NCBI RefSeq assembly: GCF_037031225.1
Contig: NZ_JAYEZN010000001.1
Span: 1,798,001-1,862,000 of the forward strand
Direction of reading: 5' to 3'
Length of the DNA stretch: 64,000 nucleotides
Source of the DNA: Halorientalis sp. LT38
GTDB taxonomy: Archaea; Halobacteriota; Halobacteria; Halobacteriales; Haloarculaceae
Shown here: in pieces, positions 8,190 to 22,725 of the stretch
Layout of the letters: the number at the start of each line of letters is the position of its first letter
Position numbering within the stretch: the stretch's first letter is position 1
The notes under the pieces: model-generated
What the model was told of the DNA's origin: nothing
The model's database searches: none
Seen by the model: only the letters and a program-made list of their open reading frames with translations
Translations under genes and position numbers: made by a program

Positions 8190-8822
8190 ATGCCGCCGTT
8201 CCCGGATCCCGACGAGCGCGAACCTCTCGCCGACGACTGCCGGCGCTGTCCCGCCCTCGTCGAGGGCCGGGAGTGCATCTCGTGGGGCAACGGTCCGCTG
8301 GACGCCGACCTGGTCGTGGTGGGGGAAGCACCCGGATACGGGGACCCCGACGCCGACCGCTGGCGGGGTGGCAACTGGACCGGCCTGGCCTACACCTCGC
8401 GTCACTCCGGGCGACGGGTCCGCGACCTGCTGGCCGACGCCGGCTACGGACACGAGAACTGCTATTTCACGAACGCCGTCAAGTGCTTCCCGGCGGACCC
8501 GGAGGATCCCACGACCAACCGGGAGCCGACCGCCGAGGAGCGCGAGAACTGCCGCCCCTACCTCCGTGAGGAGATCGAGACGGTCGCGCCGAGCGTCGTC
8601 GTCACCACCGGAACCCACGCCACACAGTCCGTGTTCGCGATGGCGGGTCACGAGGTGGACGGGTTCCTCGACGCGGTACTGGAACCCGTGCCGTGGCCCG
8701 CGCTCGAGACGACGGTACTGCCGCTCTTGCACCCCTCCTACCAGGACGTCTGGCTGTCGCGGTTCGGCTACTCGCGCCGGGAGTACGTCGACGCCATCCG
8801 GCAGACAATCCGAAGCGTCTGA
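8190..8822 (+). CDS. family 4/5-type uracil-DNA glycosylase with iron-sulfur cysteines
   Basis: Removes uracil from DNA, starting base-excision repair of deaminated cytosine. The 210-residue protein carries an N-terminal C-x2-C pair (DDCRRCPAL), the active-site motif VVVGEAPGYGDPD, the substrate-recognition segment CYFTNAVKCFP, a further cysteine in ERENCRPYL, and a C-terminal LLHPSYQ motif. The two N-terminal and two internal cysteines match the 4Fe-4S ligands of thermophilic UDGs. The ATG at 8190 is used; an in-frame GTG at 8154 would add 12 residues of low quality. It diverges from ileS. Whether it belongs to family 4 or 5 is not certain, since the motif A acidic residue decides this. Confidence 0.88.
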   Translation: MPPFPDPDEREPLADDCRRCPALVEGRECISWGNGPLDADLVVVGEAPGYGDPDADRWRGGNWTGLAYTSRHSGRRVRDLLADAGYGHENCYFTNAVKCFPADPEDPTTNREPTAEERENCRPYLREEIETVAPSVVVTTGTHATQSVFAMAGHEVDGFLDAVLEPVPWPALETTVLPLLHPSYQDVWLSRFGYSRREYVDAIRQTIRSV

Positions 8823-8886: not shown

Positions 8887-11800
8887 ATGTCGGACGAATC
8901 GGTGGGTGCGGGGGCTCCAGACGCGGGATGGCGGGCGGATGGAGCCCTCGCGGGCGCGCTGGCACGGACCGTCGAGGGAGCGTGTTTTCGACTCGATGCG
9001 GAGCGACGGCTCCGCGCTGTCACTGAGGAACTGGTCACGCTGACCGGTCGGTCGCGGGAGGAACTGCTCGGCGAACACGTCTCGGTCCTGTTCGAGCCGC
9101 CGGACGAGGCGCGACTGGAGATCGCCCTGCGTCGACTGGAGGCCGGCGAGGCGGTCGTGAAGTCGATCGCGGTGCGGATCACCGCTGACGGGGAGGCCAT
9201 CCCGTGTTCACTCAGGCTGGGGCGAGTCGATCCGAACGCCGAGTCGTCGGAGGTCGTCGGCGTGATCCGGACCCGGGCGACCCCCAAGACCGAGGACGGT
9301 TCGACCGACGAGCGCAGCGAGCAGGCCCGCCGACTCGAGCGGGAACGAGACCTCTTCGAGCAGGTGCTCGACGCCGCGCCGATCGACATCAAGGTCGTCG
9401 ACCGGGACGGCGAGGTGATTCGGACGAACGCGCAACGGGAGATCCGGGAGTTTGCGGACGTCACCGACTACGACATATACACCGTCGATGGCGAGCCGAT
9501 ACCCGTCGCGGAGCGGCCGTCTCGGCGGGTCTTCGAGACCGGCGAGCCGGTGTACGACGAGGAGGTGTGCGTCGACCGTCCCGACGGCGACCGCCGGTAC
9601 ATTTCGGTCTCCGCCGTCCCGCTGACCGACGACGACGGCGAGGTCGACCGGGCCGTCGTCACCGTCGAGGACGTCACGCATCTGAAAGCGCAGGCCCGCC
9701 GGCTCGAACGCCAGCGCGACGCCGTCGAGGCCGAGCTCGAGGGCGTGTACGACCGGGTCACGGACGCCTTCTTCGCGCTAGACTGCGAGTGGCGGTTCAC
9801 CCACGTCAACGACCGGACCGCGGAGGTGTTCGGCCGCCCGGCCGAGGAGATGATCGGCGAGCACATCTGGACGCGGTTCGACGAACTCGCCGGGACGGAC
9901 TTCCAGGCGGAGTACGAACGGGCCATGGAGACCCAGGAGCAGGTGAGCTTCGAGGCGTACTTCGAACCCCAGGAGGCGTGGTACGCGGTCGAGGCCTACC
10001 CGTCGGACTCGGGGCTGTCGGTCTACTTCAGGGACGTGACCGAGCGCAAAGAGCGCGAGCGGGCGCTGGCCGAGTCCCGGCGTCGATACCGGGGCCTGGT
10101 CGAGAACTTCCCCAACGGCGTGGTCACCCTGTTCGACGAGGAGATGCGCATCCTGGTCGCGGGCGGTGAGGGGTTCGCGGGCTACCCCTTCGAGGCCGAA
10201 GACATCGAGGGCGAGCGGCTCGAGGACGCCGCGCCGTCGGAACTCTACGAACAGGTCAACCCCCACTACGAGGCCGTACTCGACGGCGAGGAGCGGAGCT
10301 TCGAGGTGACGTTCGGGGAGCGGACGCTCCAGTTCCACTCTGTCCCGATCCGCGACGACGAGGGCCGGGTCACCGCGGGAATGGGGATGTCACAGGACGT
10401 CACCGAGCAGCACCGCCGGGAGCGGGAACTGCAGACGCGGGTCCGCCAGCAGTCGGCCGTCACGGGACTCGGCCAGCGAGCCCTCGAAGCGGACGACCTC
10501 GACGCCCTGTTCTCGACCGCCGTGTCGGCCATCGCGGCGACGCTCGACACCGACTCCTGCAAGGTGCTCGACCTGACGGCCGAGGGCGACGAGTTACTGT
10601 TGCGGGCCGGCGTCGGCTGGCGCGACGAGCTGGTCGGGCAGGCGACGGTGGGCACCGATCGCGACTCGCAGGCGGGGTACACGCTCCTGTCCAAGGAGCC
10701 GGTCGTCGTCCAGGACCTCACGACCGAGGACCGGTTCACGGGGCCGGAACTGCTCTCCTCACACGACGTCAGGAGCGGCGTGAGCGTCGTCATCGGCACG
10801 CCGCAGGACCCCTGGGGCGTGCTGGCCGCCCACGACAGCGAGGCCAGGGAGTTCAGCCGACAGGACGTCGAATTCGTCCAGGCGATGGCGAACATCCTCA
10901 CGACGGCCGTCGAGCGCATCGAACAGGAAGGGGAACTGCGCCGCCAGCGCGAACAGCTCGCGGCGCTGAACCGCCTGAACGAGATCAGCCGGGACATCAT
11001 CCGCGCGCTCCTCCAGCAGTCGACCCGCGAGGAGGTCGAACAGCTGGTCTGTGACCGCCTGGCCGACTCCGACTCCTACGCCTTCGCCTGGGTCGGCGCG
11101 CTGGACGAGCAGAGCGAAGAGGTGGTCGTCGAGACCGAGGCCGGCGTGACCGACTACCTCGACGACGCGACCATCAGGATCGACGACAGCGACGCGGCAC
11201 AGGGGCCGACGGGCAAGGCCTTCAAGACGGGCGAGTTCCAGGCCTCCCGGAACGTCCTGGAAGACCCCGACTACGCGCGGTGGCGCGACCGGGGCAAGGA
11301 GTACGGCTACCGCTCGTCAGCGGCCGTACCCATCAGCCACGAGAACACCATCTACGGCGTGTTGAACGTCTATACCGAGCGAGTCGACGCGTTCGACACC
11401 GAGGAGCGGGCAGTGCTCCGCGGCCTGGGCGAGGTGATGGGCCACGCCATCAACGCCATCGAGCGCGAGCGACTGCTGATGAGCGACGAGGTCACCGAAG
11501 TCGAGATCCGCCTCCAGTCGCTCTTCGATGACCTGGACATCGAGGCGGACGTCACGGGGTCGATCACCATCTCGGAGACGATTCCGACCGGCGACGGGGC
11601 CTACCTCGCCTACGGGACCGCGACCGAGGCCGCCCAGCCGGCGCTCGAAGCGCTCGTCGAGCGAGAGACGGACTGGGGCGACCTCACCTACCTCGAGAGT
11701 GACGCTGGCGACCGCCGGTTCGAGGTCGTCCTCGAGGACCCCCCGATCCTGCGGGTGCTGAGTTCCCACGGCGGCCACCTCGACCGGGTCCGGATCAGTG

Positions 11801-12159
11801 ACGGCGACGTGTTTCTGACCATGGAACTCCCGCCCGACGCGCCGGTCCGGGCGGTCGTCGACGGGGTGGAATCGGTGTACTCCGACGCGGAGATGCTGGC
11901 CCAGCGCCGGACGACCCACAGCGGACGGACGGGCGGCCGAGCCGGTTTCGACCTCGAAGCCCTCCTCACCGACCGACAGGCCGCCGCCGTGGAGGCGGCC
12001 TACCACGCCGGCTTCTTCGAGTGGCCCCGCGAGCGCACCGGCGAGGAGGTCGCGGCGTCACTGGGGATCGCACCGCCCACCTTCCACCAGCACCTCCGGA
12101 CCGCCCAGCGCCACGTCTTCGAGGCCCTGCTCGAGGACGACGAGCAGGACCAGCCCTGA
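8887..12159 (+). CDS. multi-PAS/GAF bacterio-opsin-activator-type regulator
   Basis: A 1090-residue cytoplasmic sensor-regulator of the haloarchaeal Bat type. In order: four PAS-like domains (about residues 20-130, 150-265, 285-390, 395-510; the second and third end in VTVEDVTHLKAQ and VYFRDVTERKER), a GAF domain about 520-670 (ending in VLAAHDSEAREFSRQDVEFV), a second GAF about 690-860 (SSAAVPISHENTIYGVLNVY), the bacterio-opsin activator domain about 870-1010, and an HTH_10 helix-turn-helix at the C terminus (GEEVAASLGIAPPTFHQHLRTAQ). No transmembrane segment or kinase domain is present, so signal sensing is coupled directly to DNA binding. The ATG at 8887 is placed by the PAS domain; the frame upstream is antisense or out-of-frame to the glycosylase gene. 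Target genes are unknown. Confidence 0.9.
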   Translation: MSDESVGAGAPDAGWRADGALAGALARTVEGACFRLDAERRLRAVTEELVTLTGRSREELLGEHVSVLFEPPDEARLEIALRRLEAGEAVVKSIAVRITADGEAIPCSLRLGRVDPNAESSEVVGVIRTRATPKTEDGSTDERSEQARRLERERDLFEQVLDAAPIDIKVVDRDGEVIRTNAQREIREFADVTDYDIYTVDGEPIPVAERPSRRVFETGEPVYDEEVCVDRPDGDRRYISVSAVPLTDDDGEVDRAVVTVEDVTHLKAQARRLERQRDAVEAELEGVYDRVTDAFFALDCEWRFTHVNDRTAEVFGRPAEEMIGEHIWTRFDELAGTDFQAEYERAMETQEQVSFEAYFEPQEAWYAVEAYPSDSGLSVYFRDVTERKERERALAESRRRYRGLVENFPNGVVTLFDEEMRILVAGGEGFAGYPFEAEDIEGERLEDAAPSELYEQVNPHYEAVLDGEERSFEVTFGERTLQFHSVPIRDDEGRVTAGMGMSQDVTEQHRRERELQTRVRQQSAVTGLGQRALEADDLDALFSTAVSAIAATLDTDSCKVLDLTAEGDELLLRAGVGWRDELVGQATVGTDRDSQAGYTLLSKEPVVVQDLTTEDRFTGPELLSSHDVRSGVSVVIGTPQDPWGVLAAHDSEAREFSRQDVEFVQAMANILTTAVERIEQEGELRRQREQLAALNRLNEISRDIIRALLQQSTREEVEQLVCDRLADSDSYAFAWVGALDEQSEEVVVETEAGVTDYLDDATIRIDDSDAAQGPTGKAFKTGEFQASRNVLEDPDYARWRDRGKEYGYRSSAAVPISHENTIYGVLNVYTERVDAFDTEERAVLRGLGEVMGHAINAIERERLLMSDEVTEVEIRLQSLFDDLDIEADVTGSITISETIPTGDGAYLAYGTATEAAQPALEALVERETDWGDLTYLESDAGDRRFEVVLEDPPILRVLSSHGGHLDRVRISDGDVFLTMELPPDAPVRAVVDGVESVYSDAEMLAQRRTTHSGRTGGRAGFDLEALLTDRQAAAVEAAYHAGFFEWPRERTGEEVAASLGIAPPTFHQHLRTAQRHVFEALLEDDEQDQP

Positions 12160-12165
12160 TCGACC

Positions 12166-13110
12166 TCAGGCGTCGGCGCGTTCGTCGAGTTCCACTCGGA
12201 GGGTCGCGAGCAGCGTCTCCAGGGTCGCCCCCTCCCGCTCGAACGCCCGGAGGCGGTCGGTCACCGCCGGATCCAGCGGCGGGCCCCGGAGCACGAAGGC
12301 GCCGCCGGTGGCGGTCGCCCGGAGGACCCAGCGCGCGACCGAGGCGACCGGGCCCCACCCGGCGTCGGCGAGCACGACGGCGATCCGCCACGCGTATTCG
12401 CGACCGCCCGTGATGGCCGCGAGCGAGAGCCGCTCGTCCAGGCGACCCAGCGCCACGTCGACGTCGGCGACGCCGGCCGCGTAGGTCTCCGCCAGGATCT
12501 CCTGCTGGACGTCGACCAGGCGAGCCAGCACCCCGTCGACGGCGCGGTGGTCGTCGCGTCTGGCAGCCCGGTCCGGGTCGATCCCCACGTCGGCGAGCGT
12601 CAGCGCCAGGTCGTAGTTGATGTGCGCGTTAATTCCCAGGAAGGCATCCTGGCTCGCCAGGGCGTCGCCCCGGAGCGCGGTCCCGAAGGCGACCCGCCAC
12701 GGGTCGGGGACGGCACCGACCTCGCCGCGCTCGAAGGCGAGGAAGGCCCGCCGGTAGTAGTTCGCGAACGTCGTCGTGTAGGTCCGCATCCACGCCGGGT
12801 CCGCGAAGTACCCGTCCGCGATCCGGGCGCGGATCCGTTCCGTCATGCGCGTGTAGACCGTGAGGAACACCGCCCGGCGGTCGCCGCGGTCGGCGAGACG
12901 CGCCTCCAGTTCACGCAGGCGCTCGGCCGCGTCCTCGACCGAGTCGTACGGCTCCCGGACGACCGACACGAGCGCCGGATCGGGCTCGGAGGGTGGCTCG
13001 AACTGGCGCACGTCCCGCCGGAGCGCGAGCGCCATCTCGCGGAGTCGGCGGGGAGTCAGGAGACGGGCGGCGTCGCCGGCGGCCGCGAGCGAGCGTACCG
13101 GGGTACTCAT
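12166..13110 (-). CDS. DUF5995-like conserved protein
   Basis: A 314-residue, mostly helical soluble protein that resembles the DUF5995 family, based on the conserved segment DAFLGINAHINYDLALTLAD and the overall helix pattern. The N-A-H-I-N-x-D core looks like a possible metal or substrate site, but no activity is known to me. The ATG at 13110 is preferred to the alternative at 13161 because the intervening residues are Arg/Pro-rich and look untranslated. It lies head-to-tail after a FAD monooxygenase gene (gap about 80 bases) on the same strand, and its end almost touches the Bat-type regulator. The neighbourhood with a terpene-synthase-like gene raises the possibility of a shared pathway; this is inference only. 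Confidence 0.72.
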   Translation of the reverse strand: MSTPVRSLAAAGDAARLLTPRRLREMALALRRDVRQFEPPSEPDPALVSVVREPYDSVEDAAERLRELEARLADRGDRRAVFLTVYTRMTERIRARIADGYFADPAWMRTYTTTFANYYRRAFLAFERGEVGAVPDPWRVAFGTALRGDALASQDAFLGINAHINYDLALTLADVGIDPDRAARRDDHRAVDGVLARLVDVQQEILAETYAAGVADVDVALGRLDERLSLAAITGGREYAWRIAVVLADAGWGPVASVARWVLRATATGGAFVLRGPPLDPAVTDRLRAFEREGATLETLLATLRVELDERADA

Positions 13111-13191
13111 CGGCGAACCATCACGGCGCCGAGAGATAGCTGTGGCGGGACGTCCCGGCACCGCGGGACGACGCCGTTTCCGCCCCGTGAT

Positions 13192-14541
13192 CTACCGCGA
13201 GAGGAACACGCGGCGGAGGATTCCGGGCCGTGCCAGCGTCGTGGGTGGCTCGTTCAGCATGAGGACGTTCGAGAGGTGGGTCGCGACGACGGGGTCCGTG
13301 TGCGCGGTCCGGATCAGCCGGGAGAGCAACGGGTTGACGAGCCGCGTCCCGAACGGTCTGTCACCCTCGGCCTGCGGGAACTGGAAGTCGGCGCCGACCG
13401 TCAGCCGCCAGACGGTGTCGACGAGGTCCCCCACGCCGTCGAAGAAGCGGGCGGCCAGGTCGTCGAGCCCGCCCGTCGCGAGGGCGTGGTGGAGGTGGAG
13501 ACTCTGCAGTGCGGCCACGGTCATCCCCTGCCCGTAGATCGGGTTGACACTGGCGACGCCGTCGCCGAGGACGACCAGCCCGTCCGGGAACCGGTCGAGC
13601 GCCTCGTACCGGCGGCGGCGGTTGGCGGGGAACGGGTACCGGTGTGCCGCCGCCTCGATCCAGGGGCGATCCGAGAGCACGGCCGCAATATCGGGAACCG
13701 GGAGGTCGGCCGCGTACGCCTCGAACTCGTCGGGATTGGTCGGCGGGTCGTCACCGTGGACGCCGATGAGCGTCACCGTCCAGCGGTCGTTCTCGACGGG
13801 GACGACCGTCGCTCCCCGGGTCCGCGGGTGCGAGGGCGGGACCAGGAATCCGCGGCGGTCGTCCGGCGGGCGCTCGACGGTGACGGTGGCGTAGCCCACG
13901 TCGACCAGGACCTCGCTGACCGGCGGGGGCGCGTAGCCGTGGTCGTCGAGCCAGTCGGGCGTTCGAGACGTGCGACCGGTCGCGTCGACGACCAGCTCGG
14001 CGTCCAGTTCGACCTTTTCGCCCGCGTGGGTCTCGGCCGCGACCCCCGTCACGCGCCGGCCGGCGTCGTCGGTGCGATAGTCGGTGACTCGGTGGCGATC
14101 CCGGAGAGTGATCGACGGTCGCTCGGCGACGTTGCGGCGCAGGACCGCCTCCAGCAGCGGCCGACTCGCACAGAGCAGCGACGGGGGCTCGTCGGGTGCG
14201 GTGACGAACCCGCCCTCGTCGTAGTAGGCGAGGTCGCGCCCGACGTCGACCTGGAGTCCACCGGCGTCCCGGACGTCGGCGGTCAGCCCCGGAAACAGGT
14301 CCTCGAGCGTGCGTTGGCCGGCCTCCAGCAACACGTGGACGTGATCGGCCTGGGGGACGTTCCGGCGGGCGACCGGTTCGGACGGGAGCGGGTCGCGCTC
14401 GACGACGACGACGCGCTCGAAGGCGTCGGCGAGGACGCGGGCCGCGATCAGCCCGGCGATGCTCCCGCCGACGACCACGGCCCGCTGGCCGACGGCGCCG
14501 GGGGCGTCGCCGTCGTACGGGGGCGTCGTCGCGAGCGTCAT
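13192..14541 (-). CDS. FAD-dependent monooxygenase/oxidoreductase
   Basis: A 449-residue flavoprotein of the aromatic-hydroxylase/geranylgeranyl-reductase fold. The N terminus has the dinucleotide-binding motif VVVGGSIAGLIAARVL followed by VVVVERD; the middle has ELVVDATGRTSRTP; the C-terminal FAD contact is LVVLGDGVASVNPIYGQGM. A VPQADHVHVLLEAG segment after the first strand is typical of a subgroup I know mainly from actinobacterial secondary metabolism. The Leu/Arg-rich C-terminal tail has no clear membrane helix. It is followed by the DUF5995-like gene on the same strand and lies 1.7 kb from a terpene-synthase-like gene. Substrate unknown; a lipid or terpenoid is plausible. Confidence 0.82.
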   Translation of the reverse strand: MTLATTPPYDGDAPGAVGQRAVVVGGSIAGLIAARVLADAFERVVVVERDPLPSEPVARRNVPQADHVHVLLEAGQRTLEDLFPGLTADVRDAGGLQVDVGRDLAYYDEGGFVTAPDEPPSLLCASRPLLEAVLRRNVAERPSITLRDRHRVTDYRTDDAGRRVTGVAAETHAGEKVELDAELVVDATGRTSRTPDWLDDHGYAPPPVSEVLVDVGYATVTVERPPDDRRGFLVPPSHPRTRGATVVPVENDRWTVTLIGVHGDDPPTNPDEFEAYAADLPVPDIAAVLSDRPWIEAAAHRYPFPANRRRRYEALDRFPDGLVVLGDGVASVNPIYGQGMTVAALQSLHLHHALATGGLDDLAARFFDGVGDLVDTVWRLTVGADFQFPQAEGDRPFGTRLVNPLLSRLIRTAHTDPVVATHLSNVLMLNEPPTTLARPGILRRVFLSR

Positions 14542-14580
14542 AGACTGGGGGTCCGCTGGATCCGGTCGGTCATCCGTCCG

Positions 14581-15999
14581 TCACTCCTCGCCGTCCGTGT
14601 GGATCTCGAAGCGTGCCCCGCCCTCGGGGCCCGACGTCACCGAGATCGCCCAGCCGTGCGTGTCGGCGACCTGCTCGACGATGGCCAGGCCGAGTCCGGT
14701 GCTGTCGCTCGCCGACGAGTGCCCGATCTCGAACACCTGGTCGCGCTCCTCGGGCGGGATCCCGGGCCCGTCGTCCGCGACGTAGAACCCGGTGCCGTCG
14801 TCGAGGTCGCCGATCCAGACCTGGGCCCCGTCACCGCCGTATTCGAGCGCGTTCAACAGCAGGTTCTCCAGGAGCGAGTGGAGCCGTTCCGCGTTCGCCT
14901 CGATGGTGAGATCCGTGTCGACGGTCAGTTCGGCGTTGCCCTGCTCGACGCTGTCCCAGCACTCGCTGGCGACCGCGGCCAGCGATATCGACTCGGTCTC
15001 CGCGGACATCCGCTCGTGTTTGGCGAACTCCATCAGCTTCTCTATCATCTCGTCGACGCGGTCGACGGCCCGCGTCGCGCCCTCGAGGTGTTCGCTGTCG
15101 AAGTTCTCTTCCATCAGTTCGAGGCGCGTGTTGATGATGTCGAGCTGGTTTTTGACGTCGTGAGACATGAAGCTCGTGATGTTCTCGAGGCGCGCTTTCT
15201 GCTCTGAGAGCTGCTCGTCCCGTTCTTTCCGCTCCGTGATGTCCCGGACGTTGACGAGGATGCCGTCGATGAGGCGGTCTTCGAGGAGGCTGTGGCCCCG
15301 CACCTCGACCCAGCGCCAGGTCCCGTCCGCGTGTTTCGAGCGGAACTCGATCGTGTGTTCCTCGTCGGGGTTCTGGACGACTTCGGTGACCTTCAGCATC
15401 GCCTCGTCGCGGTCCGCCGGATGCACGAGATCGTAGGCGACCTCGCCGACGAGTTCCTCCGGCTCGTAGCCCAGCACCCGCGTGACCGACGGGGAGATGT
15501 ACTCGACTTCCCCCTGGGTGTTGACGACCATCACGTAGTCCGAGGCGTGTTCGAGGATCGTGCTGTACCACTCGGTCTGCTCTTCGACGGCCTTCTCCGC
15601 CCGGAACTGCGCCACCGCGTTCTCGACCCGGTTGAGCAAGACGGTGTACTGGTCCGTGCCGCCGCCTTTCTGCAGGTAGTCGGTGACGCCCGCCGAGATC
15701 GCGTCGCTGGCGATCTCCTCGCTGCCGCGGCCGGTAAAGAGGATGAAAGGGAGGTCCGGCCAGTCCTCGCGGACCGCCTGGAGGAACTCGATGCCGTTGC
15801 GCCCGGGCATGTTGTAGTCGCTGACCACGCAGTCGAACTCCTCGGCGGCGAGCCGTTCGAGGCCCTCTTCGGCGTCCCGCGCGACCGTCACCGCAACGTC
15901 CTCCCCCAGGCGCCGCAGCTGCTCCGCCGTCAGATCCCCGAAGGCAGAGTCGTCGTCGACGTGGAGCACGCGGATCTCCCCAGCCGAAGTGGCCTCCAT
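14581..15999 (-). CDS. response regulator-PAS-histidine kinase hybrid
   Basis: A soluble 472-residue hybrid sensor kinase. In order: receiver domain (about 8-125) with the acidic pair in VLHVDDD and phosphoacceptor aspartate 61 in VVSDYNMPG; PAS domain (about 145-260) ending DITERKERD; dimerisation helix with phospho-accepting histidine 280 in FMSHDVKNQLD; and an ATPase domain with NLLLNALEYG, VADDGPGIPPEE and STGLGLAIV. The start is set at 15999: a TATA-like element sits 24-32 bases upstream of that ATG, whereas the in-frame ATG at 16026 overlaps the element itself. Receiver-first kinases of this kind are common in haloarchaea. It sits between the FAD enzyme and the terpene-synthase-like gene, so it might control them, but no direct link is seen. 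Confidence 0.9.
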   Translation of the reverse strand: MEATSAGEIRVLHVDDDSAFGDLTAEQLRRLGEDVAVTVARDAEEGLERLAAEEFDCVVSDYNMPGRNGIEFLQAVREDWPDLPFILFTGRGSEEIASDAISAGVTDYLQKGGGTDQYTVLLNRVENAVAQFRAEKAVEEQTEWYSTILEHASDYVMVVNTQGEVEYISPSVTRVLGYEPEELVGEVAYDLVHPADRDEAMLKVTEVVQNPDEEHTIEFRSKHADGTWRWVEVRGHSLLEDRLIDGILVNVRDITERKERDEQLSEQKARLENITSFMSHDVKNQLDIINTRLELMEENFDSEHLEGATRAVDRVDEMIEKLMEFAKHERMSAETESISLAAVASECWDSVEQGNAELTVDTDLTIEANAERLHSLLENLLLNALEYGGDGAQVWIGDLDDGTGFYVADDGPGIPPEERDQVFEIGHSSASDSTGLGLAIVEQVADTHGWAISVTSGPEGGARFEIHTDGEE

Positions 16000-16022
16000 C
16001 GTTCCCGACAGTACGTCCTGCG

Positions 16023-16031
16023 ACATTTATA
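16023..16031 (-). promoter_or_regulatory. TATA box of the receiver-PAS-kinase gene
   Basis: On the minus strand the sequence reads gggtataaatg, centred about 28 bases before the ATG at 15999. This is the normal archaeal TATA-to-transcription-start distance, so the transcript is probably leaderless and starts at 15999. The ATG at 16026 lies inside the box. Confidence 0.6.
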
Positions 16032-16157
16032 CCCTCGTTCGGATTCGAACTGGAAAACGCCGGCGCCGACGCGACAGGCCCCCGAACCTCACCGGTTCTC
16101 GCTGCGTCGGTCGTCGCGTCCGGCGGTCAGCCGGTTCGACGCGTGAGCCGCTCGGGA

Positions 16158-16166
16158 GTATTAAGG
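16158..16166 (+). promoter_or_regulatory. TATA-like box of the terpene-synthase-like gene
   Basis: The AT-rich stretch agtattaag is centred about 29 bases before the ATG at 16191, in otherwise GC-rich sequence. This fits a leaderless haloarchaeal transcript and supports that start. Confidence 0.5.
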
Positions 16167-16190
16167 GTCTGATCGTTCTTCTGGTTCTAT

Positions 16191-17186
16191 ATGTCTACTC
16201 GGGGACAACGCATCGTCGCGGATCTCCAGCGCGAGGACGTCACCGATCTACTGACCGAGATCGACGCCTACGAACTGCCGCCAGTCCTCGAGCAACTCGT
16301 CGAGGACTACCAGGAGCTGGAGTACTCGCGCCCGCCCTTCATGTGGAAGTGGGTCCACAAACTCGCCCCCAAGAACACGCTCCCCTGCGTGGACGACGAG
16401 CACGTCGACCTCGTCCCGACCGACAAGACGATCGCGATCCTCTTCGTCACGCTGATCGACGACATCCTCGAGAAAGGCGGTGATCGGGCGACCTTCCGAC
16501 GACTCGCGCAGATCCCGTCGGACGCGGAAGAAGACGACGCCGAGGGTGGCGACTCCGACTACGTGGCGTTCACCCGGCGCGTGTGGGACACCCTGCTCGA
16601 CCGAATCCAGCGCGGCCCGCATTACGATACCTACGAAGGCATTTTTAGATACGACGTCGAGCAGGCGATCAACGCGGTGGAGTACAGCGACTTCGTCATC
16701 CGGAACCCGGAGCTGGCGACCGTCGACGACCTCGTCCGCTACGAGTCCCACAACATGGTCATGTTCGCGTACGCCGACCTGGACCTGATGCACACCACGG
16801 GCGGGATCAGCGACGACTACGCGACGCTCCGGGAGGCCATCTGGGAGGCCCAGTTGATGGCGCGGATCGGCAACTGGCTCAGCACCTGGGAGCGCGAACT
16901 CGCCGAGGGGGATTACAGCTCCGGCGTCGTCGTGTACGCGCTCGAAAACGACGTCATCGACCCGGCCGACCTCGACGCACTGGAGGCAGGGGAGGTCACC
17001 GCCGACGCGCTCGCCGAGCGGATCCGGGCCGCCGACGTCGAGGCGGAGTTCTTCGACCGCTGGGATCACCACTACCGACTGCTGGAGCAGCGCAACGACG
17101 ACCTCGAGACCATGGACCTGACGCCGTTCGTCGAGGGGATGGAGGAAGTGCTGCGGTACCACATGGCGAGTACGGGCCTCAAGTGA
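16191..17186 (+). CDS. class I terpene synthase-like protein
   Basis: A 331-residue all-helical protein that shows, at canonical spacing, the hallmarks of class I terpene cyclases: an aspartate-rich D-D-x-x-E motif at residues 90-94 (LIDDILEKGGD), a pyrophosphate-sensor arginine at 183 in LVRYESHNM, an NSE-type triad N228/T232/E236 in IGNWLSTWERE (45 residues after the arginine), and a C-terminal Arg-Tyr pair at 322-323. These bind the Mg2+ ions and diphosphate of a prenyl substrate. Length also fits bacterial cyclases. The second position of the NSE motif is Trp instead of the usual Asp. It lacks the second DD motif expected of a chain-elongating prenyltransferase. Product unknown. The start is supported by a TATA-like box about 29 bases upstream. 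Confidence 0.72.
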   Translation: MSTRGQRIVADLQREDVTDLLTEIDAYELPPVLEQLVEDYQELEYSRPPFMWKWVHKLAPKNTLPCVDDEHVDLVPTDKTIAILFVTLIDDILEKGGDRATFRRLAQIPSDAEEDDAEGGDSDYVAFTRRVWDTLLDRIQRGPHYDTYEGIFRYDVEQAINAVEYSDFVIRNPELATVDDLVRYESHNMVMFAYADLDLMHTTGGISDDYATLREAIWEAQLMARIGNWLSTWERELAEGDYSSGVVVYALENDVIDPADLDALEAGEVTADALAERIRAADVEAEFFDRWDHHYRLLEQRNDDLETMDLTPFVEGMEEVLRYHMASTGLK

Positions 17187-17237
17187 GAAGCGAGGGCGTT
17201 CGTCCGTCGTCGGTGCAGGGGGACGCGACGGTCCGGC

Positions 17238-17555
17238 TCAGGCGTCCTGTTCGTGGACCTGCTCCAGGACCGCCGACGCCGCGACGTCGACGACGCCCGC
17301 CGCCTCGAGCGTGTCGGCAAAGGCGTCACTCTCGTAGTACGCCAGGGCGTCCTCGAGGCGATCCGCGGCCACCTCCTGGAGGACGATCACCCGGTCCTCG
17401 TCGTCCACTGGTCGAAACGCTCGCGTGCCCAGCGAGCCGTGGGCCGCGCGTTCCGCGGCGTTTTCCTCGTGGTGGCGCTCCCAGCGGTCGTAGTCCTCGA
17501 TCTCGTGTTCCGCGTAGACGTATGGCACTGCCGGCGCTCCGTACGCCACGCTCAT
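17238..17555 (-). CDS. small ferredoxin-fold (dimeric alpha/beta-barrel-like) protein
   Basis: A 105-residue soluble protein. The beginning YVYAEHEIEDYDRWERHHEE, the middle strand DRVIVLQEV and the following helix LEDALAYYESDAFADTLEAAGV form the beta-alpha-beta pattern seen in dimeric alpha/beta-barrel proteins such as EthD/ABM-like or NIPSNAP-like families. The exact family is not recognised and no catalytic residue is evident. The ATG at 17555 is used; the longer open frame extending to 18485 runs antiparallel to real coding sequence of the permease in another frame. It is oriented with, and 44 bases downstream of, the permease gene. Confidence 0.68.
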   Translation of the reverse strand: MSVAYGAPAVPYVYAEHEIEDYDRWERHHEENAAERAAHGSLGTRAFRPVDDEDRVIVLQEVAADRLEDALAYYESDAFADTLEAAGVVDVAASAVLEQVHEQDA

Positions 17556-17599: not shown

Positions 17600-18985
17600 C
17601 TAGTGGTCGTGGCCCTCCATCACCATCGGATGGCCGGTCGCGTAGTCGTCCGGCTTCTCCGCGAAGGTCTCCTTGCAGGTCTGCGAGCAGAAGTAGTAGG
17701 TCTCGCCGTCGTGTGTCGCCGCTGGTTCGCTGTCGTCTGTCCGCATGCCACAGACGGGGTCGCGGTACTGGCCGGGCGCACCGAGTCCACGGCGGTACAC
17801 GTACAGGAGAAAGCCCGACAGCGCGAAGGCGAGGAGGTTGAGGTAGAACGTGTAGTTGAACTCGAAGTAGGTCTGTTCGGTCGCCGTCTCCCCGCCGGCC
17901 AGGTCCGGCACGATACCGAGAGCGTCGAACAGCAACTCCATGAGAAAGCCCGTAAAGGCCATCGTCACGAAGAAGACGCCGAGGATGTAGAGCATGATCT
18001 TCCAGCCGTAGTACTTCCGGTAGACGTTGAGAACGGGGACGGTGATGAGGTCGGCGTAGACGAAGGCGATGACGCCCGCGAAACTGACGCCACCGCCCCA
18101 GAGGGCGACGGCGAACGGGACGTTGCCCATACTGCCGACGAAGCTGACGACGGCGACGGCGACGCCCATGACCGCGTTCTCGGCGGTCACGAGCAGGCCG
18201 TCGCCCTGGAGGAACAGGGCGTTCCAGACCCACTGGGGGACGAAGACGATGACGAAGCCCGAGACGAGAAACCCCGCGACGACGTCCTTCCAGATCATCG
18301 ACCACTCCTTGCGGTACTGGTTGCCGATCTTGTACCAGCCACCCCACGACAGGAGTTCGTCGCGCCAGCCGCCGCGACTCGCGGTCACTTGCTCGTAGGT
18401 CTCCAGACAGCCCGCCGAGCAGAATTTCAGCGTCTCGCCACCGTCGGTCGTGAGCGTATATCCGTCTTTGCCCTCCATCCCGCACGTGGGGTCTTCGGAA
18501 ACGCCCGACTCACGGTCGCGCTCGGCGAGCGTCTCCCGGACTTCCGCGAACAGGGTCTCGGGGAGCGTGAGGTGGACGATGACGGCCATGACGGCGATGA
18601 GGACGAGGCCGCCGAGCAGTTCCGCGACGAGGAACTCCCAGCCCAGGAGAATGAGGATCATCAACCCGAGTTCGACGATGAGGTTCGTCGACGCGAACAT
18701 GAACGCGAGGAAATTCACCGCGTGTGCCCCCTTCTTGAACAGGCCCTTCCCGATGGCGACGGCCCCGAAACTACACCCGCTGCTGGCCGCCCCGAACGCG
18801 GTCGCTTTCGCGAGTCCGCGCAGGTCCCCATCGCCCAGGATCTTGCCCATTCGCTCCTTCGAGACGTAGACCTGGACGAGACTCGTGATCGCGAGGCCCA
18901 TGATGATCGCCCACGCTGCCGTCCAGAGGAAGCCGACACCGATGCGCAGGGCCTCGGTCACCCCCTCGAGTATCGTCGCCTGCAT
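17600..18985 (-). CDS. UPF0718/COG0701-type permease with two YHS metal-binding domains
   Basis: A 461-residue membrane protein. Two hydrophobic halves, each with several helices, flank a YHS domain (about residues 165-205, EDPTCGMEGKDG...FCSAGC), and a second YHS domain closes the protein (about 408-450, RDPVCGMRTDDS...FCSQTC). The first half carries the family motif ASSGCSFGAVAIGKGLFKKG, the second FVGSMGNVPFAVALWGGG. Similar permeases are thought to move metal or thiol-bound ions; YHS domains commonly bind copper or other metals. The ATG at 18985 fits the family start. It diverges from the SHOCT gene and lies near a metal ATPase operon, so metal handling is likely, but the transported species is not established. 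Confidence 0.82.
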   Translation of the reverse strand: MQATILEGVTEALRIGVGFLWTAAWAIIMGLAITSLVQVYVSKERMGKILGDGDLRGLAKATAFGAASSGCSFGAVAIGKGLFKKGAHAVNFLAFMFASTNLIVELGLMILILLGWEFLVAELLGGLVLIAVMAVIVHLTLPETLFAEVRETLAERDRESGVSEDPTCGMEGKDGYTLTTDGGETLKFCSAGCLETYEQVTASRGGWRDELLSWGGWYKIGNQYRKEWSMIWKDVVAGFLVSGFVIVFVPQWVWNALFLQGDGLLVTAENAVMGVAVAVVSFVGSMGNVPFAVALWGGGVSFAGVIAFVYADLITVPVLNVYRKYYGWKIMLYILGVFFVTMAFTGFLMELLFDALGIVPDLAGGETATEQTYFEFNYTFYLNLLAFALSGFLLYVYRRGLGAPGQYRDPVCGMRTDDSEPAATHDGETYYFCSQTCKETFAEKPDDYATGHPMVMEGHDH

Positions 18986-19161
18986 AGCCGTTATATCGTG
19001 TGGATCGGCTATTGCAGTTGCCCTTGCGATACGATTCCGGAGCGGAGTCTCGACTGTGGGTTCCAAAATCGAGCGCCCGTTTTCCAGAAGTTTCGAAGCC
19101 ACAATAGCATTGAACCGTGGCCACGTACGTGACAGTGGAGACGGACTCACGGAGGACTCAG

Positions 19162-19536
19162 ATGCAAGAAAACACAGACGACACGCGGTTGGTAACGATT
19201 CTCCTCGTCATCGTCGGTGCGTTCGTGATCGTCCCGATGTTCTTCATGGGCTTCGGGATGATGGGGGGCGGCCCGATGATGGGCGGGACGTGGAGCGGTC
19301 ATATGTGGGGCGACGGGACGATGCCGGGCTGGATGCTCGTCGTCGGGATCGTGATGCAGCTCCTGTTCCTCGTCGCCCTGCTCGGCGGTGGCTACCTCGT
19401 CTACAGGGCAGTGACTGGAAGCGGGAGCGAGTCGGACCGGGCGCTCGAAGAACTCCGGCTCGCGTACGCTCGCGGCGAGCTAACCGACGACGAATACGAG
19501 CAGCGACGGGAGGCGCTCCAACGCGACAGGGACTGA
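19162..19536 (+). CDS. membrane protein with Met/His-rich loop and SHOCT domain
   Basis: A 124-residue protein with two transmembrane helices (about 10-32 and 57-80) and a C-terminal SHOCT domain (ALEELRLAYARGELTDDEYEQRREAL). The loop between the helices is very rich in Met, Gly, His and Trp (FGMMGGGPMMGG, SGHMWGDGTM), the kind of sequence found in copper- or silver-binding proteins. SHOCT domains are short oligomerisation modules at the ends of small membrane proteins. The ATG at 19162 is preferred; an upstream in-frame start at 19117 gives a poor extension. It is read divergently from the YHS permease. Role in metal handling is inferred from context and composition. Confidence 0.75.
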   Translation: MQENTDDTRLVTILLVIVGAFVIVPMFFMGFGMMGGGPMMGGTWSGHMWGDGTMPGWMLVVGIVMQLLFLVALLGGGYLVYRAVTGSGSESDRALEELRLAYARGELTDDEYEQRREALQRDRD

Positions 19537-19637
19537 CGAGACGCTCGATCCGAGACACGGCAGCGGACTTCGAAGGGATCACCGGACGACCCAGCCAGCG
19601 CCCCGAGATACCGGTACAGCGGGCGAGCGGTTGCGCC

Positions 19638-20162
19638 CTAGGAGTCCCAGTGAGCGCGAACGAACGCCCGTCGCAGGACGGTCAGGAGCACGTACGTCTC
19701 GTACTTCTGGGACCGACAGTGCTCACAGGGCTGCATGTCCGCGACGATCTCCTCGATCGCGTCGTCGTACTCGCCCGTGAGCGTGGCGAGCGCGTCCGTG
19801 AGCTGGGGCTGGACGGCGTCGACCATCTCCTCGACGGCGGCGTCGGCCGAGTCCGGCAGCGAGTACGAGAGGACGATCGTGTTCGCGTGATAGTACTTCG
19901 TCGTCCCGCCGCGGCCCTCCTCGAAGCGGACGACGTCGACGAGGCCGGCGTCCCGTAACTCGTTGATGTGGTGGCGAACGGTGTTTTCGGTGCGGTCGAT
20001 ACCGCGGTCTGTGAGACGTTCGTGGACCTCCGACGCGGTCAGGGCCGCCTCGGACAGAATGTCGAGGATCATCGCCCGCATCGGTTCGTCGATGGCATCC
20101 GAAACCCGGGTGTCTCGGACCGCGATGTCGTCGAGGCGGTGATCGGTACCGGAGCTACCCAT
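19638..20162 (-). CDS. winged-helix transcriptional regulator, possibly metal-responsive
   Basis: A 174-residue cytoplasmic protein. Residues about 15-85 form an ArsR-like winged helix-turn-helix (MRAMILDILSEAALTASEVHERL, then TENTVRHHINELRDAGLVD and a wing FEEGRGGTTKYY). The C-terminal part is helical and holds a C-x2-C pair (PCEHCRSQKYE), a candidate metal or redox site. It is transcribed divergently from the HMA chaperone/P-type ATPase genes, the usual arrangement for a regulator controlling them. The ATG at 20162 opens the conserved part; the longer frame to 20600 overlaps the neighbouring chaperone gene. The inducing metal cannot be read from the sequence. Confidence 0.8.
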   Translation of the reverse strand: MGSSGTDHRLDDIAVRDTRVSDAIDEPMRAMILDILSEAALTASEVHERLTDRGIDRTENTVRHHINELRDAGLVDVVRFEEGRGGTTKYYHANTIVLSYSLPDSADAAVEEMVDAVQPQLTDALATLTGEYDDAIEEIVADMQPCEHCRSQKYETYVLLTVLRRAFVRAHWDS

Positions 20163-20360
20163 GCGATAACTGAGGGTGAGCACGCGGGAAAAGGTAGTGG
20201 GATGCGTGCGACGTGGGCCGCAATCGCGGAACCGAACCCGCGTGGCCCCGATAGCGAAAGCTCTAGACGACCCGTTTGACCGTTCCAACGCCCTATTCCG
20301 GTATTCAAACATATCATCTAAAAAATACTTATTCGGGTGCGGGCCGTATCTCGAACTGTA

Positions 20361-20576
20361 ATGAGCGAGACGACCCAGTTCCGCGTCCTCGACTTCGACT
20401 GCCCCACCTGTGCCAGCACGGTCGAACGCGCACTCTCGAACGTCGATGGCGTCCAGCACGTCGAGGTCCACTACACGACCGGCCGCGTCGAGATCGAGTT
20501 CGACGACGGCGTCGCGGACCCCGACGCCTTCGCACAGACGATCGAAAGCCAGGGGTACACGCCCCAGCCCGCCTGA
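20361..20576 (+). CDS. heavy-metal-associated (HMA) domain chaperone
   Basis: A 71-residue HMA-fold protein with the metal-binding motif C-P-T-C-A (residues 14-17 in LDFDCPTCASTVERALS), a second helix DPDAFAQTIESQGY and the expected strand order. Such proteins carry Cu(I), Zn or similar ions to P-type ATPases. The ATG at 20361 is 4 bases before the ATPase gene's own start region: the stop at 20576 and the ATPase ATG at 20581 make this a two-gene operon with tight coupling. An AT-rich stretch (aaaaaatacttattc, near 20320-20333) is the likely promoter. The usual glycine-methionine before the motif is absent (FDCPTC instead of GMTC), a variation of unclear meaning. Confidence 0.88.
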   Translation: MSETTQFRVLDFDCPTCASTVERALSNVDGVQHVEVHYTTGRVEIEFDDGVADPDAFAQTIESQGYTPQPA

Positions 20577-20580
20577 TACC

Positions 20581-22725
20581 ATGGATAGACAAGCGATCAC
20601 ACAGTACTACCGGAAACACCGGAAAGCCATCGTCACGGTAGCCAGCGGCCTCCTCTACGGCGGTGGCTGGAGCCTCGGCTCCCTCACGAGTTTCGACACG
20701 GCGGGCGCCGCCGTGCTCGTCCTCGCCACGATTATCGGCGGCTACGACATCGCAAAGACGGCCTACCACGAGGTCACCAACCGGACGCTCGGGATCAAGA
20801 CGCTGGTGACGCTGGCCGCCGTCGGCGCCGTCCTCATCGGGGAGTACTGGGAGGCCGCGGCGGTGGTCTTCCTGTTCAGTCTCGGGAGCTACCTCGAAGG
20901 CCGGACGATGCGGAAGACCCGAAAGTCCCTCCAGGAACTGCTGGAGTTGACGCCCGACACGGCGACGGTGCGCCGAGATGGGACGCTCCAGAAGGTCCCC
21001 GCACGCGAGGTCGAGGAGGGCGAGGTCGTCGTCGTCAAGCCGGGCGGGAAGATCCCGGTCGATGGGACCGTCGTCGACGGCGAGAGCGCCGTCGATCAGG
21101 CGCCGGTCACCGGCGAGAGCGCGCCCGTCCACAAGGCCGACGGCGACGAGGTCTACGCCGGGACGGTCAACCAGGAAGGGGCGCTGGAGATCCGGACGAC
21201 CGGGGCGGGGTCGGACACGACGCTCGAACGCATCATCCGCCGCGTCGAGGCGGCCCAGGAGGCCCAGTCGCCCACGGAGAGCCTCATCGACCGGTTCGCG
21301 AAGTACTACACGCCGGCCGTCGTCGCGCTGGCCGTCGGCGCGTTCGCGATTACGCAGAACGCGATCCTGTCGCTGACGCTGCTGGTGATCGGCTGTCCCG
21401 GCGCGCTGGTCATCGGGCCACCCGTCAGCATCGTCTCCGCCATCGGCAACGCCGCCCGGTCGGGCGTGCTGCTGAAGGGCGGCGACCACCTCGAACGCGC
21501 CGGCAAGATCGACCTCGTCGCCTTCGACAAGACCGGGACGCTCACGGCGGGTGAACCCACCGTCGCCGACGTCGAGGGGTTCGATACCGATGCGAGCGAG
21601 GTGCTCGCACTCGCGGCGACCGCAGAGAAGAAGAGTGAACACCACCTCGCGGCCGCCATCCTCGACGCGGCCCGCGACCGCCCGCCCGCTGCGACGGACG
21701 GTGGCGTCCCGGTCGCCCAGGCGGCCGACTCGGACGCCGGACGCCGGTCGATCCCCGACCCGGACGACTTCGACGTGATCGCCGGGAAGGGCGTCGTCGC
21801 CCACGTCGACGTCTCCGGCGACGCCGGAGGCTCCTTGGACGGATCCGACGGTGGCCACGAGGTCGTCGTCGGTAACCGCGCACTGCTCGACGACCGCGGC
21901 ATCGACGTCCCCGAGCGTGTCGCCGAGTACGTCCGGGAGCGCGAGGAGCGCGGCGAGACGGTCGTCCACGTCGCGCGGCGGGCGGTCGGAGCGACCAGTG
22001 GGAGCGAGACCGCCGAACGCGCGAACGGGGAGCGGGCGACCGACCATGTGGAGGTCGCCGACAGTGCGAGCGGCGACGCCGCGAGCAGGGAGCGACCCGT
22101 GAGCGGCGATTGGGACGTCGTCGGCGCGATCGCGGTGCGGGACGAACTCCGGGAGGCCGCGCCCCGCGTCGTCGCGGCGCTCCGGGACGCCGGCATCGAG
22201 ACGGTGATGCTCACCGGCGACAACGAGCGGACGGCCGCCGCGGTCGCCGACGAAGTGGGCAGGGAGGCCGGTGAAACCGGCCTCCGGAAACGTGGCGGCG
22301 CCGCCGCCACGCAATTCGACGAGTACCGCGCCGAACTGCTCCCCGAGGACAAGCAGTCCGCCATCGAGGCCTTTCAGGCCGACGGGCACGTCGTCGCGAT
22401 GGTCGGGGACGGCATCAACGACGCGCCCGCGCTGGCGACCGCCGACGTCGGCATCGCGATGGGGGCGGCGGGGACGGACACCGCCATCGAGACGGCGGAC
22501 GTGGCGCTGATGGCCGACGACCTCGAACGCATCCCGTACGCGGTCAAACTGAGCAAAGCGACTCGCTGGAACGTCCTCGAGAACGTCGGCCTCGCGGTGC
22601 TGACCGTGACCGTCCTCCTCGCGGGCGTGCTCACGAGCTACGTCACGCTCGCCGCCGGAATGCTGGTTCACGAGGCCAGCGTCCTCCTCGTCATCCTCAA
22701 CGGGATGCGACTGCGCCGCTACTGA
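20581..22725 (+). CDS. P1B-type metal-transporting ATPase with CPG motif
   Basis: A 714-residue P-type ATPase that should pump a transition-metal ion out of the cell. Standard parts are the actuator VTGES (177-181), phosphorylation site DKTGT (316-320), MLTGDN, and VGDGINDAP. Departures from the usual types: the membrane motif is C-P-G (272-274), not CPC, CPH or SPC; the nucleotide-domain HP motif reads SEHH (352-355); and the last helix has H697-E698-A699, recalling the HEG motif of cobalt/iron-type pumps. Two low-complexity Gly/Ala/Asp insertions interrupt the nucleotide domain. No N-terminal HMA domain; the separate upstream HMA protein may serve instead. Metal specificity is therefore open (Zn, Cd, Co, Fe or Cu). 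Confidence 0.9.
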   Translation: MDRQAITQYYRKHRKAIVTVASGLLYGGGWSLGSLTSFDTAGAAVLVLATIIGGYDIAKTAYHEVTNRTLGIKTLVTLAAVGAVLIGEYWEAAAVVFLFSLGSYLEGRTMRKTRKSLQELLELTPDTATVRRDGTLQKVPAREVEEGEVVVVKPGGKIPVDGTVVDGESAVDQAPVTGESAPVHKADGDEVYAGTVNQEGALEIRTTGAGSDTTLERIIRRVEAAQEAQSPTESLIDRFAKYYTPAVVALAVGAFAITQNAILSLTLLVIGCPGALVIGPPVSIVSAIGNAARSGVLLKGGDHLERAGKIDLVAFDKTGTLTAGEPTVADVEGFDTDASEVLALAATAEKKSEHHLAAAILDAARDRPPAATDGGVPVAQAADSDAGRRSIPDPDDFDVIAGKGVVAHVDVSGDAGGSLDGSDGGHEVVVGNRALLDDRGIDVPERVAEYVREREERGETVVHVARRAVGATSGSETAERANGERATDHVEVADSASGDAASRERPVSGDWDVVGAIAVRDELREAAPRVVAALRDAGIETVMLTGDNERTAAAVADEVGREAGETGLRKRGGAAATQFDEYRAELLPEDKQSAIEAFQADGHVVAMVGDGINDAPALATADVGIAMGAAGTDTAIETADVALMADDLERIPYAVKLSKATRWNVLENVGLAVLTVTVLLAGVLTSYVTLAAGMLVHEASVLLVILNGMRLRRY

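Follow-up and report, generated by a model that had tools for sequence, protein, structure and literature searches.

Results

Genes and borders of the locus

The window, i.e. the whole stretch of 64,000 nucleotides that was analysed, contains as open reading frames the four genes that an earlier note had assembled into a terpenoid cluster: those for a DUF5995 protein, a FAD enzyme, a sensor kinase and a terpene synthase (TS). The last three form an island (13158 to 17225, ends approximate). The TS gene (16191 to 17186, plus strand, 331 residues) and the kinase gene (14581 to 15999, alternative start at 16026, minus strand, 472 residues) diverge from an intergenic region (16000 to 16190), in which putative TATA-like stretches were seen by eye about 27-31 bases upstream of both starts. 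The FAD gene (13192 to 14541, minus strand, 449 residues) follows the end of the kinase gene on the same strand after 39 bases, and the two are probably read as one transcript.

The borders were set by alignment with an empty site. Window flanks joined from 13157 to 17226 aligned cleanly through positions 8481-8800 of a congener locus (L172), in which the homologues of the two flanking genes directly adjoin, so that the island falls exactly between them. These flanking genes code for the DUF5995 protein (12166 to 13110, or to 13161 with an upstream GTG start; minus strand) and for a small protein of 105 residues (17238 to 17555, minus strand) in which a Pfam search found no family at E ≤ 1. 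A PAS/GAF-BAT-HTH_10 regulator (8887 to 12159, plus strand; Pfam BAT 108.9 bits, HTH_10 69 bits) adjoins the DUF5995 gene outside the island. No exact direct or inverted repeat of 8-12 bases was common to both island ends. The GC3 of the three island genes (0.89-0.92) is close to the window mean (0.88, sd 0.05), and composition therefore does not point to a recent foreign origin, which was counted against the cassette reading.

The terpene synthase

The TS protein matched Terpene_syn_C_2 (Pfam PF19086) with 26.0 bits for a cut-off of 23.7. It carries the aspartate-rich DDxx(D/E) motif as D90/D91-xx-E94 and the NSE/DTE triad (N-xxx-S/T-xxx-E) as N228-xxx-T232-xxx-E236. When conservation was counted over 70 called TS homologues, D90, D91 and E94 were present in 66/69, 69/69 and 60/69 aligned rows, and N228, T232 and E236 in 70/70, 69/70 and 70/70. 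The AlphaFold (AF2) model (pLDDT 95.2) adopts the alpha-helical terpenoid synthase fold (best Foldseek E 8.7e-5), and the 50 matches listed by VIA-align have Z values of 20.1-21.7 over 253-285 residues. The top matches, including bornyl diphosphate synthase (Z 21.7, rmsd 3.5, 285 aligned) and LrdC (Z 21.4, rmsd 3.3, 276 aligned), are ties with Z within 1. By motif and predicted fold the protein is thus a class I terpene synthase, in support of the cyclase of the earlier note, and turnover of a prenyl diphosphate is predicted.

A sequence search of the PDB found no terpene synthase, even when a 43-sequence TS profile was used, and a viral library gave no match at E ≤ 0.001 (best, an orpheovirus terpenoid synthase at 1.8e-2). 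The plasmid-borne TS homologues found (6/6) are annotated 'hypothetical protein', one of them with an extra HTH feature. A cytochrome P450 neighbour was rejected as a family-wide feature, being present within three genes in 4/115 TS genes versus 9/928 control positions. No published chemistry was found for this TS family, which counts against reading the locus as a biosynthetic cassette.

The FAD enzyme

In addition to a FAD_binding_3 match (Pfam, 49 bits), the FAD enzyme has MonCI (E 2.3e-53) and Lsd18 (E 1.1e-47) as its nearest PDB sequences, the homology to MonCI covering residues 20-442 of 449. The proposal that it belongs to an actinobacterial secondary-metabolism subtype is in agreement with this result, and its sequence supports membership of that epoxidase family; it is accordingly read as a flavin monooxygenase of MonCI/Lsd18 type and a probable epoxidase. 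The outcome that had been named as refuting, a housekeeping geranylgeranyl reductase of lipid saturation, does not hold (TIGR02032, 45.5 bits for 158.8 needed; NF041080, 28.6 for 580). The motifs RKGxPQxRHxHxLWSxGA and AFNPxxGHGMSxxA are described as specific to polyether epoxidases (PMC10560226). At these places the window enzyme reads RRNVPQADHVHVLLEAGQ and ASVNPIYGQGMTVAA: the core is retained, with both histidines of the HxH loop and the NPxYGxGM stretch, and several fixed positions differ.

An epoxide-hydrolase-like gene lies close to the FAD gene, as placed by tblastn, in 9/68 other distinct FAD loci. The SHRA6 locus carries such a gene, found by tblastn and genome search. The genome of the window holds a homologue unlinked to the island. 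The absence of an epoxide hydrolase from the island itself counts against the cassette. The one record examined among 137 FAD plasmid records (Rhodococcus H15) has no terpene gene beside FAD.

Recurrence of the genes in other genomes

The TS family was found in 87/293 genomes of the order and FAD homologues in 84/293; in some genomes part of the first candidates was scored (five per genome for FAD), and the numbers of weak copies are lower bounds. The claim that such a cluster is rare in archaea has to be qualified in view of this spread of the TS family, whose genes in the fetched loci are mostly without FAD. TS, FAD and kinase occur together, rearranged, in SHRA6 (L052/L192) and in a Halovenus MAG (L193). 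In L194, TS and kinase are present on a contig whose first base lies about 30 bases ahead of the TS match. The Halovenus trio and this contig-end case come from MAGs, which counts against the cassette. The co-localisation whose absence had been named as refuting is thus present for three genes in two other genomes, while all four families were co-localised in the window only, among the loci examined. In Natrinema ejinorense, whose TS belongs to a clade distant from that of the window, two FAD genes flank the TS gene, with P450, UbiA, methyltransferase and SnoaL genes nearby. Tailoring-type enzymes thus accompany TS in SHRA6, the Halovenus MAG and N. ejinorense.

The TS proteins of the window, SHRA6, Halovenus and L194 fall within one 12-row set in a quick tree (support 99). 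The eight remaining rows, Halobellus for the most part, lack both FAD and sensor genes at a distance of up to two genes. The FAD tree does not unite the TS-linked enzymes (4 changes, which does not improve on shuffled labels), a point against the cassette, indicating that the linkage arose more than once or that the tree is poorly resolved.

The substrate of the FAD enzyme might be, in place of the TS product, an isoprenoid of the membrane (carotenoid, squalene, menaquinone or a lipid chain), the TS compound being separate and both answering the same stress sensor. We regard this as the less probable assignment, albeit a serious one. In its favour are the 55 genomes that hold FAD homologues without TS, the structural proximity of MonCI to squalene epoxidase noted in PMC10560226 and a weak match of the FAD enzyme to Pfam SE, squalene epoxidase (16.9 bits for a cut-off of 20.1). 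However, FAD lies near TS in four genomes and in two distant TS clades.

That three independent genes, those for TS, FAD and kinase, met by chance on a mobile stretch and share no pathway is rather unlikely. In favour of this reading, such kinases are plentiful and FAD is missing near most TS genes. Both TS and FAD are present in 29/293 genomes versus 24.9 expected (P 0.26), i.e. without significant genome-wide co-occurrence. In 26/29 of these the distance between them exceeds 5 kb or they lie on separate contigs. Gene order and strand are not constant from one locus to the next, the order in the window being unlike that in SHRA6 and Halovenus; these three observations were also counted against a cassette. 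On the other hand, a coordinate count placed the two genes within 5 kb in 3/29 genomes, for 0.136 pairs expected (P 4e-4), to which the Halovenus MAG is added. Moreover, in the window as well as in its three nearest relatives the kinase adjoins TS or stands one to two genes off, and the island contains nothing but the three genes.

The DUF5995 gene

The DUF5995 protein (PF19458, 187 bits; single-sequence AlphaFold model with pLDDT 49.8) had been proposed as part of the cluster, on the same strand as FAD at 80 bases. The strand is correct; the distance from the FAD stop is 81 bases for the start at 13110 and 30 for that at 13161. Because of the empty site in L172, where a homologue 69% identical adjoins the other flanking gene without FAD, kinase or TS, DUF5995 is placed outside the unit and rejected as a cluster member. 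A four-gene cluster in which it actively assists the epoxidase is accordingly improbable. In its favour, it follows FAD on the same strand at the place where some genomes carry an epoxide-hydrolase-like gene, and, according to PMC11672594, a DUF5995 gene adjoins that of a flavin oxidoreductase suggested to carry out the epoxidation of irumamycin. The FAD and DUF5995 families are also common to 19/293 genomes (11.8 expected, P 0.009, kinship ignored). Nevertheless, in fetched loci with flanks of mostly about 7 kb, the two occur together outside the window only in L153 and L171, about 11.5 kb apart and in one genus, and no fetched locus except the window has TS with DUF5995. Seven plasmid records match DUF5995; that of Deinococcus H3 has no FAD gene within 4 kb of it, and that of Streptomyces H1 is almost without annotation.

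The kinase and the response-regulator fusion

Pfam analysis of the kinase revealed Response_reg (PF00072), PAS, HisKA (PF00512) and HATPase_c (PF02518) domains, as expected for the receiver-PAS-kinase of the earlier note and for a two-component sensor kinase. In 15 other genomes searched, its best matches outside its own genome are three TS-linked kinases (533, 508 and 482 bits), whereas congener kinases score 445, 425 and 418 bits. In the wider TS family a sensor gene is present within two genes in 44/115 cases versus 7.7% of control positions, and the SHRA6 TS forms an in-frame fusion with a REC-HalX response regulator.

A speculative possibility, of rather low probability, is that in part of the haloarchaea the cyclase is a direct phosphorelay output: a nearby kinase would phosphorylate a receiver fused to the cyclase (SHRA6) or partnering with it, as an enzyme-level switch, and elsewhere in the TS family a divergent BAT-type sensor-regulator would act at the promoter. 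The REC-HalX fusion and the frequent sensor neighbours could also befit a non-catalytic, signal-binding relative that serves two-component systems as a module for output or for sensing, but this is very improbable in view of the almost invariant metal motifs, the full predicted fold and the tailoring-type enzymes around the N. ejinorense TS.

Discussion

The reading that we favour, with moderate confidence, is that of a compact, probably horizontally moving and signal-controlled cassette for an oxidised terpenoid. TS would ionise a prenyl diphosphate (presumably FPP or GGPP) with Mg2+ held by the DDxxE and NSE motifs, giving a hydrocarbon or an alcohol. The MonCI-like flavoenzyme would then epoxidise at least one double bond of this product, as we infer from its homology and from the epoxide-hydrolase-like neighbours. 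A hydrolase, linked in SHRA6 and unlinked in the genome of the window, may open the epoxide. The REC-PAS kinase would sense a cue and control synthesis of the product; in SHRA6, the receiver fused to TS would let the signal act on the enzyme itself.

Such a cassette joins a plain sequence of enzyme steps (cyclisation, epoxidation, perhaps hydrolysis) to a sensor of its own, and its synthase belongs to a widespread TS family of archaea. According to the introduction of a 2023 paper, no archaeal cluster besides those of halocin and bacterioruberin had been confidently tied to a secondary metabolite (PMC10105419); the title of that paper adds lanthipeptides. The two enzymes bring a direct test of archaeal terpenoid specialised metabolism within reach, and on the SHRA6 fusion it could be examined whether phosphorylation controls terpene cyclisation.

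The cassette consists of known enzymes in a new arrangement. TS has in common with bacterial and plant class I terpene synthases (LrdC biformene synthase, 6oh6; bornyl diphosphate synthase, 1n20) the alpha-domain fold over most of its length and the DDxxE and N-xxx-T-xxx-E metal motifs, but it is only 8-14% identical to them in structural alignments and its NSE stretch reads GNWxxTWxRExxEGD. With the polyether epoxidases MonCI and Lsd18, the FAD enzyme shares near-full-length homology, the PQxxHxHxL loop and the NPxYGxGM helix. It differs from them in keeping the polyether-specific motifs only in part, which speaks against the cassette, and in its gene linkage, here with a terpene synthase and at some further loci with a gene of the alpha/beta epoxide-hydrolase-like type. 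The 'terpene' clusters of Halomicroarcula, two per genome, are haloarchaeal as is the present locus, whereas a sensor-linked TS-epoxidase unit is not described in the sections of PMC8600319 that were available. The archaeal census of PMC5847659 gives HalX, REC-HalX and HxlR-REC-HalX without a terpene synthase among them, its main text having no occurrence of 'terpen'. As in the archaeal REC-enzyme response regulators of that census, a receiver is joined to a metabolic enzyme in SHRA6, and it is in this fusion to a response regulator that the locus type is most novel.

Identity of the four genes and of the terpene synthase family

The four genes claimed by the earlier note were all recovered as open frames. 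In Pfam, the gene at 12166-13110 (-) scored 187 bits to DUF5995, the flavin monooxygenase gene (FAD) at 13192-14541 (-) 49 bits to FAD_binding_3 and the terpene synthase gene (TS) at 16191-17186 (+) 26.0 bits to Terpene_syn_C_2 (cut-off 23.7), and the kinase at 14581-15999 (-) showed the domain order REC-PAS-HisKA-HATPase. The window's TS and 42 other family members were aligned, and 30 of these 43 matched Terpene_syn_C_2 (E<=0.01). Over 70 called members, taking as denominators the rows aligned at each position, D91 was found in 69/69, D90 in 66/69 and E94 in 60/69, and in the second motif N228 in 70/70, T232 in 69/70 and E236 in 70/70 (numbering of the window's TS). These positions make up the DDxxE and N-xxx-T-xxx-E metal motifs. 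The AlphaFold model of the TS (43 input sequences) had a mean pLDDT of 95.2, and all 50 matches listed by Foldseek against the PDB were terpene synthases (best E 8.7e-5). Bornyl diphosphate synthase (Z 21.7, rmsd 3.5, 285 aligned) and LrdC biformene synthase (Z 21.4, rmsd 3.3, 276 aligned) were tied in the VIA-align ranking. Searching the PDB with a sequence profile yielded no terpene synthase (E<=1).

Of the order, 293 genomes were sampled, and 87 of them carried the family. A pattern-limited scan of GTDB 220 gave 79 loci, predominantly haloarchaeal, plus a small number of MAG contigs (methanogen, Patescibacteria and others). Terpene synthase relatives at L260, L263 and L246 are on contigs assigned by binning to Patescibacteria and Methanohalobium, through transfer or misbinning. 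The window's genome also carries, at G000:C1:757046-757186 (L125:7047-7187), an apparently decayed 47-residue remnant of the NSE region of a second terpene synthase.

A three-gene island without DUF5995

In the congener G212 (locus L172), the DUF5995 gene (69% identical) directly adjoins a gene homologous (73%) to the small one at 17238-17555 of the window, and FAD, kinase and TS are absent between them. When the window flanks were joined at 13157 and 17226, the alignment was continuous across the G212 site. The island (~13158-17225, ~4.07 kb) therefore contains exactly FAD, kinase and TS, and DUF5995, proposed earlier as a cluster member, is a bystander. Gain in the window's line is favoured over loss in G212 because four congeners (G098, G162, G212, G250) lack a TS match (E<=0.001) and the sole further congener with one, G437, is 45% identical (family search, stricter E<=1e-75). 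The TS match of G437 coincides in coordinates with that of Halorientalis marina NZ_CP095487.1, by which the window is putatively assigned to Halorientalis. Beside the cassette, window 17600-22725 likely holds a metal transport group: an ArsP-type permease that carries YHS domains is followed at some distance by a frame that looks P-type ATPase-like by eye.

Recurrence of the cassette

Among the fetched loci, the expected co-localisation held in two other genomes for TS, FAD and kinase but not for DUF5995. Near the TS of SHRA6 and of a Halovenus MAG, tblastn on the fetched loci revealed FAD (50.7-55.9%) and kinase (46.9-49.2%) homologues, the latter matched over almost their whole length. The gene order is FAD-, kinase-, TS+ in the window, TS+, hydrolase-, FAD-, kinase+ in SHRA6, where the hydrolase and FAD matches are ~30 bases apart on the same strand, and TS+, FAD-, kinase+ in Halovenus. 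In a Haloarculaceae MAG the kinase (51.0%) adjoins a TS whose match begins ~30 bases from the contig start.

The TS and FAD families occurred together in 29 of the 293 genomes (24.9 expected, P 0.26), but in 3 of these 29 (the window's genome G000, G188 and G258) they lay <5 kb apart by match coordinates, against 0.136 pairs expected (P 4e-4). TS and FAD are therefore not generally tied, but their rare closeness exceeds chance. TS-linked FADs did not group in the FAD tree.

In Natrinema ejinorense (L083 = L219), a TS from a distant clade is flanked by two MonCI-like FAD genes, with P450, UbiA, two methyltransferases, SnoaL, a class III aminotransferase and an epoxide-hydrolase-like stretch, a rich terpenoid-like cluster. 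L081 (G115) holds another terpene synthase; a REC-type kinase converges on it, and next come a P450 and a SnoaL-like gene.

Sensor genes beside the TS

A BAT-HTH_10, HATPase or REC gene lay within two genes of 44/115 de-replicated TS genes versus 71/928 control positions from the same loci (Fisher P 9e-17, a figure inflated by kinship). Clusters with such a neighbour in at least half of their members numbered 24/75, 13/50 and 4/25 at 70%, 60% and 50% identity. BAT-type regulators were the commonest (30/115), in 16 cases directly upstream and divergent; these PAS/GAF-HTH_10 proteins are common and often divergent neighbours in one large clade (e.g. L204, L209, L222). Among 15 other genomes, the best matches of the window's kinase were three TS-linked kinases (533, 508 and 482 bits), and congeners without the window's TS gave lower scores (445, 425 and 418 bits). 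The island holds no DNA-binding partner for the kinase.

The SHRA6 TS (L052:6763-8280 = L192:8461-9978, one gene fetched twice) is a single 505-aa frame in which Pfam found, in order, Response_reg (8.3e-17), HalX (8.1e-7) and the TS domain (2.3e-4). This fusion was seen only in SHRA6 among 142 called TS genes, duplicates included. The N-terminus of the Halovenus TS resembles the SHRA6 HalX stretch (11/2000 shuffles scored as high), a hint of a HalX remnant, although Pfam did not find HalX in it.

Proposed pathway and comparison with polyether epoxidases

FAD homologues occurred in 84/293 genomes (E<=1e-10) and in 137 plasmid records (E<=1e-20), 85 from Streptomyces. In 8 of the 68 distinct FAD loci outside the window, an alpha/beta hydrolase (Abhydrolase_1 in Pfam) with an epoxide-hydrolase-like sequence, and putatively that function, lay at 1.1-1.2 kb from FAD, and in 1 more at 2.2 kb (tblastn, midpoint to midpoint). 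Considering called genes only, it directly adjoined 7 of 70 FAD genes (a set of 70 to which the window's belongs) versus 8/928 control positions drawn from TS loci. At L126 (G124), a FAD epoxidase homologue has a P450 and a membrane prenyltransferase of the UbiA family nearby.

TS, FAD and kinase probably work together, perhaps with a hydrolase; substrate, product, signal and step order are what we infer. The TS would cyclise or rearrange a prenyl diphosphate, FAD would epoxidise the product, the hydrolase, linked in SHRA6 and represented in the window's genome by an unlinked homologue (49%, G000:C1:2846739), may open the epoxide, and the kinase would tune the system to a cue. No title or abstract opening among the top literature matches describes the TS family, cassette or fusion, a weak indication of novelty since only top matches were covered and most subscription journals lay outside the search.

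The housekeeping geranylgeranyl reductase identity, raised earlier against the cluster, was ruled out for FAD, those models scoring far under cut-off. Among solved structures, FAD is strongly related only to MonCI (E 2.3e-53) and Lsd18 (1.1e-47). Of the two motifs stated for polyether epoxidases in PMC10560226, the window FAD retains the cores PQxxHxHxL and NPxYGxGM, yet several of the fixed positions are different. For this reason we do not class it as a polyether epoxidase, only as an enzyme predicted to work like one.
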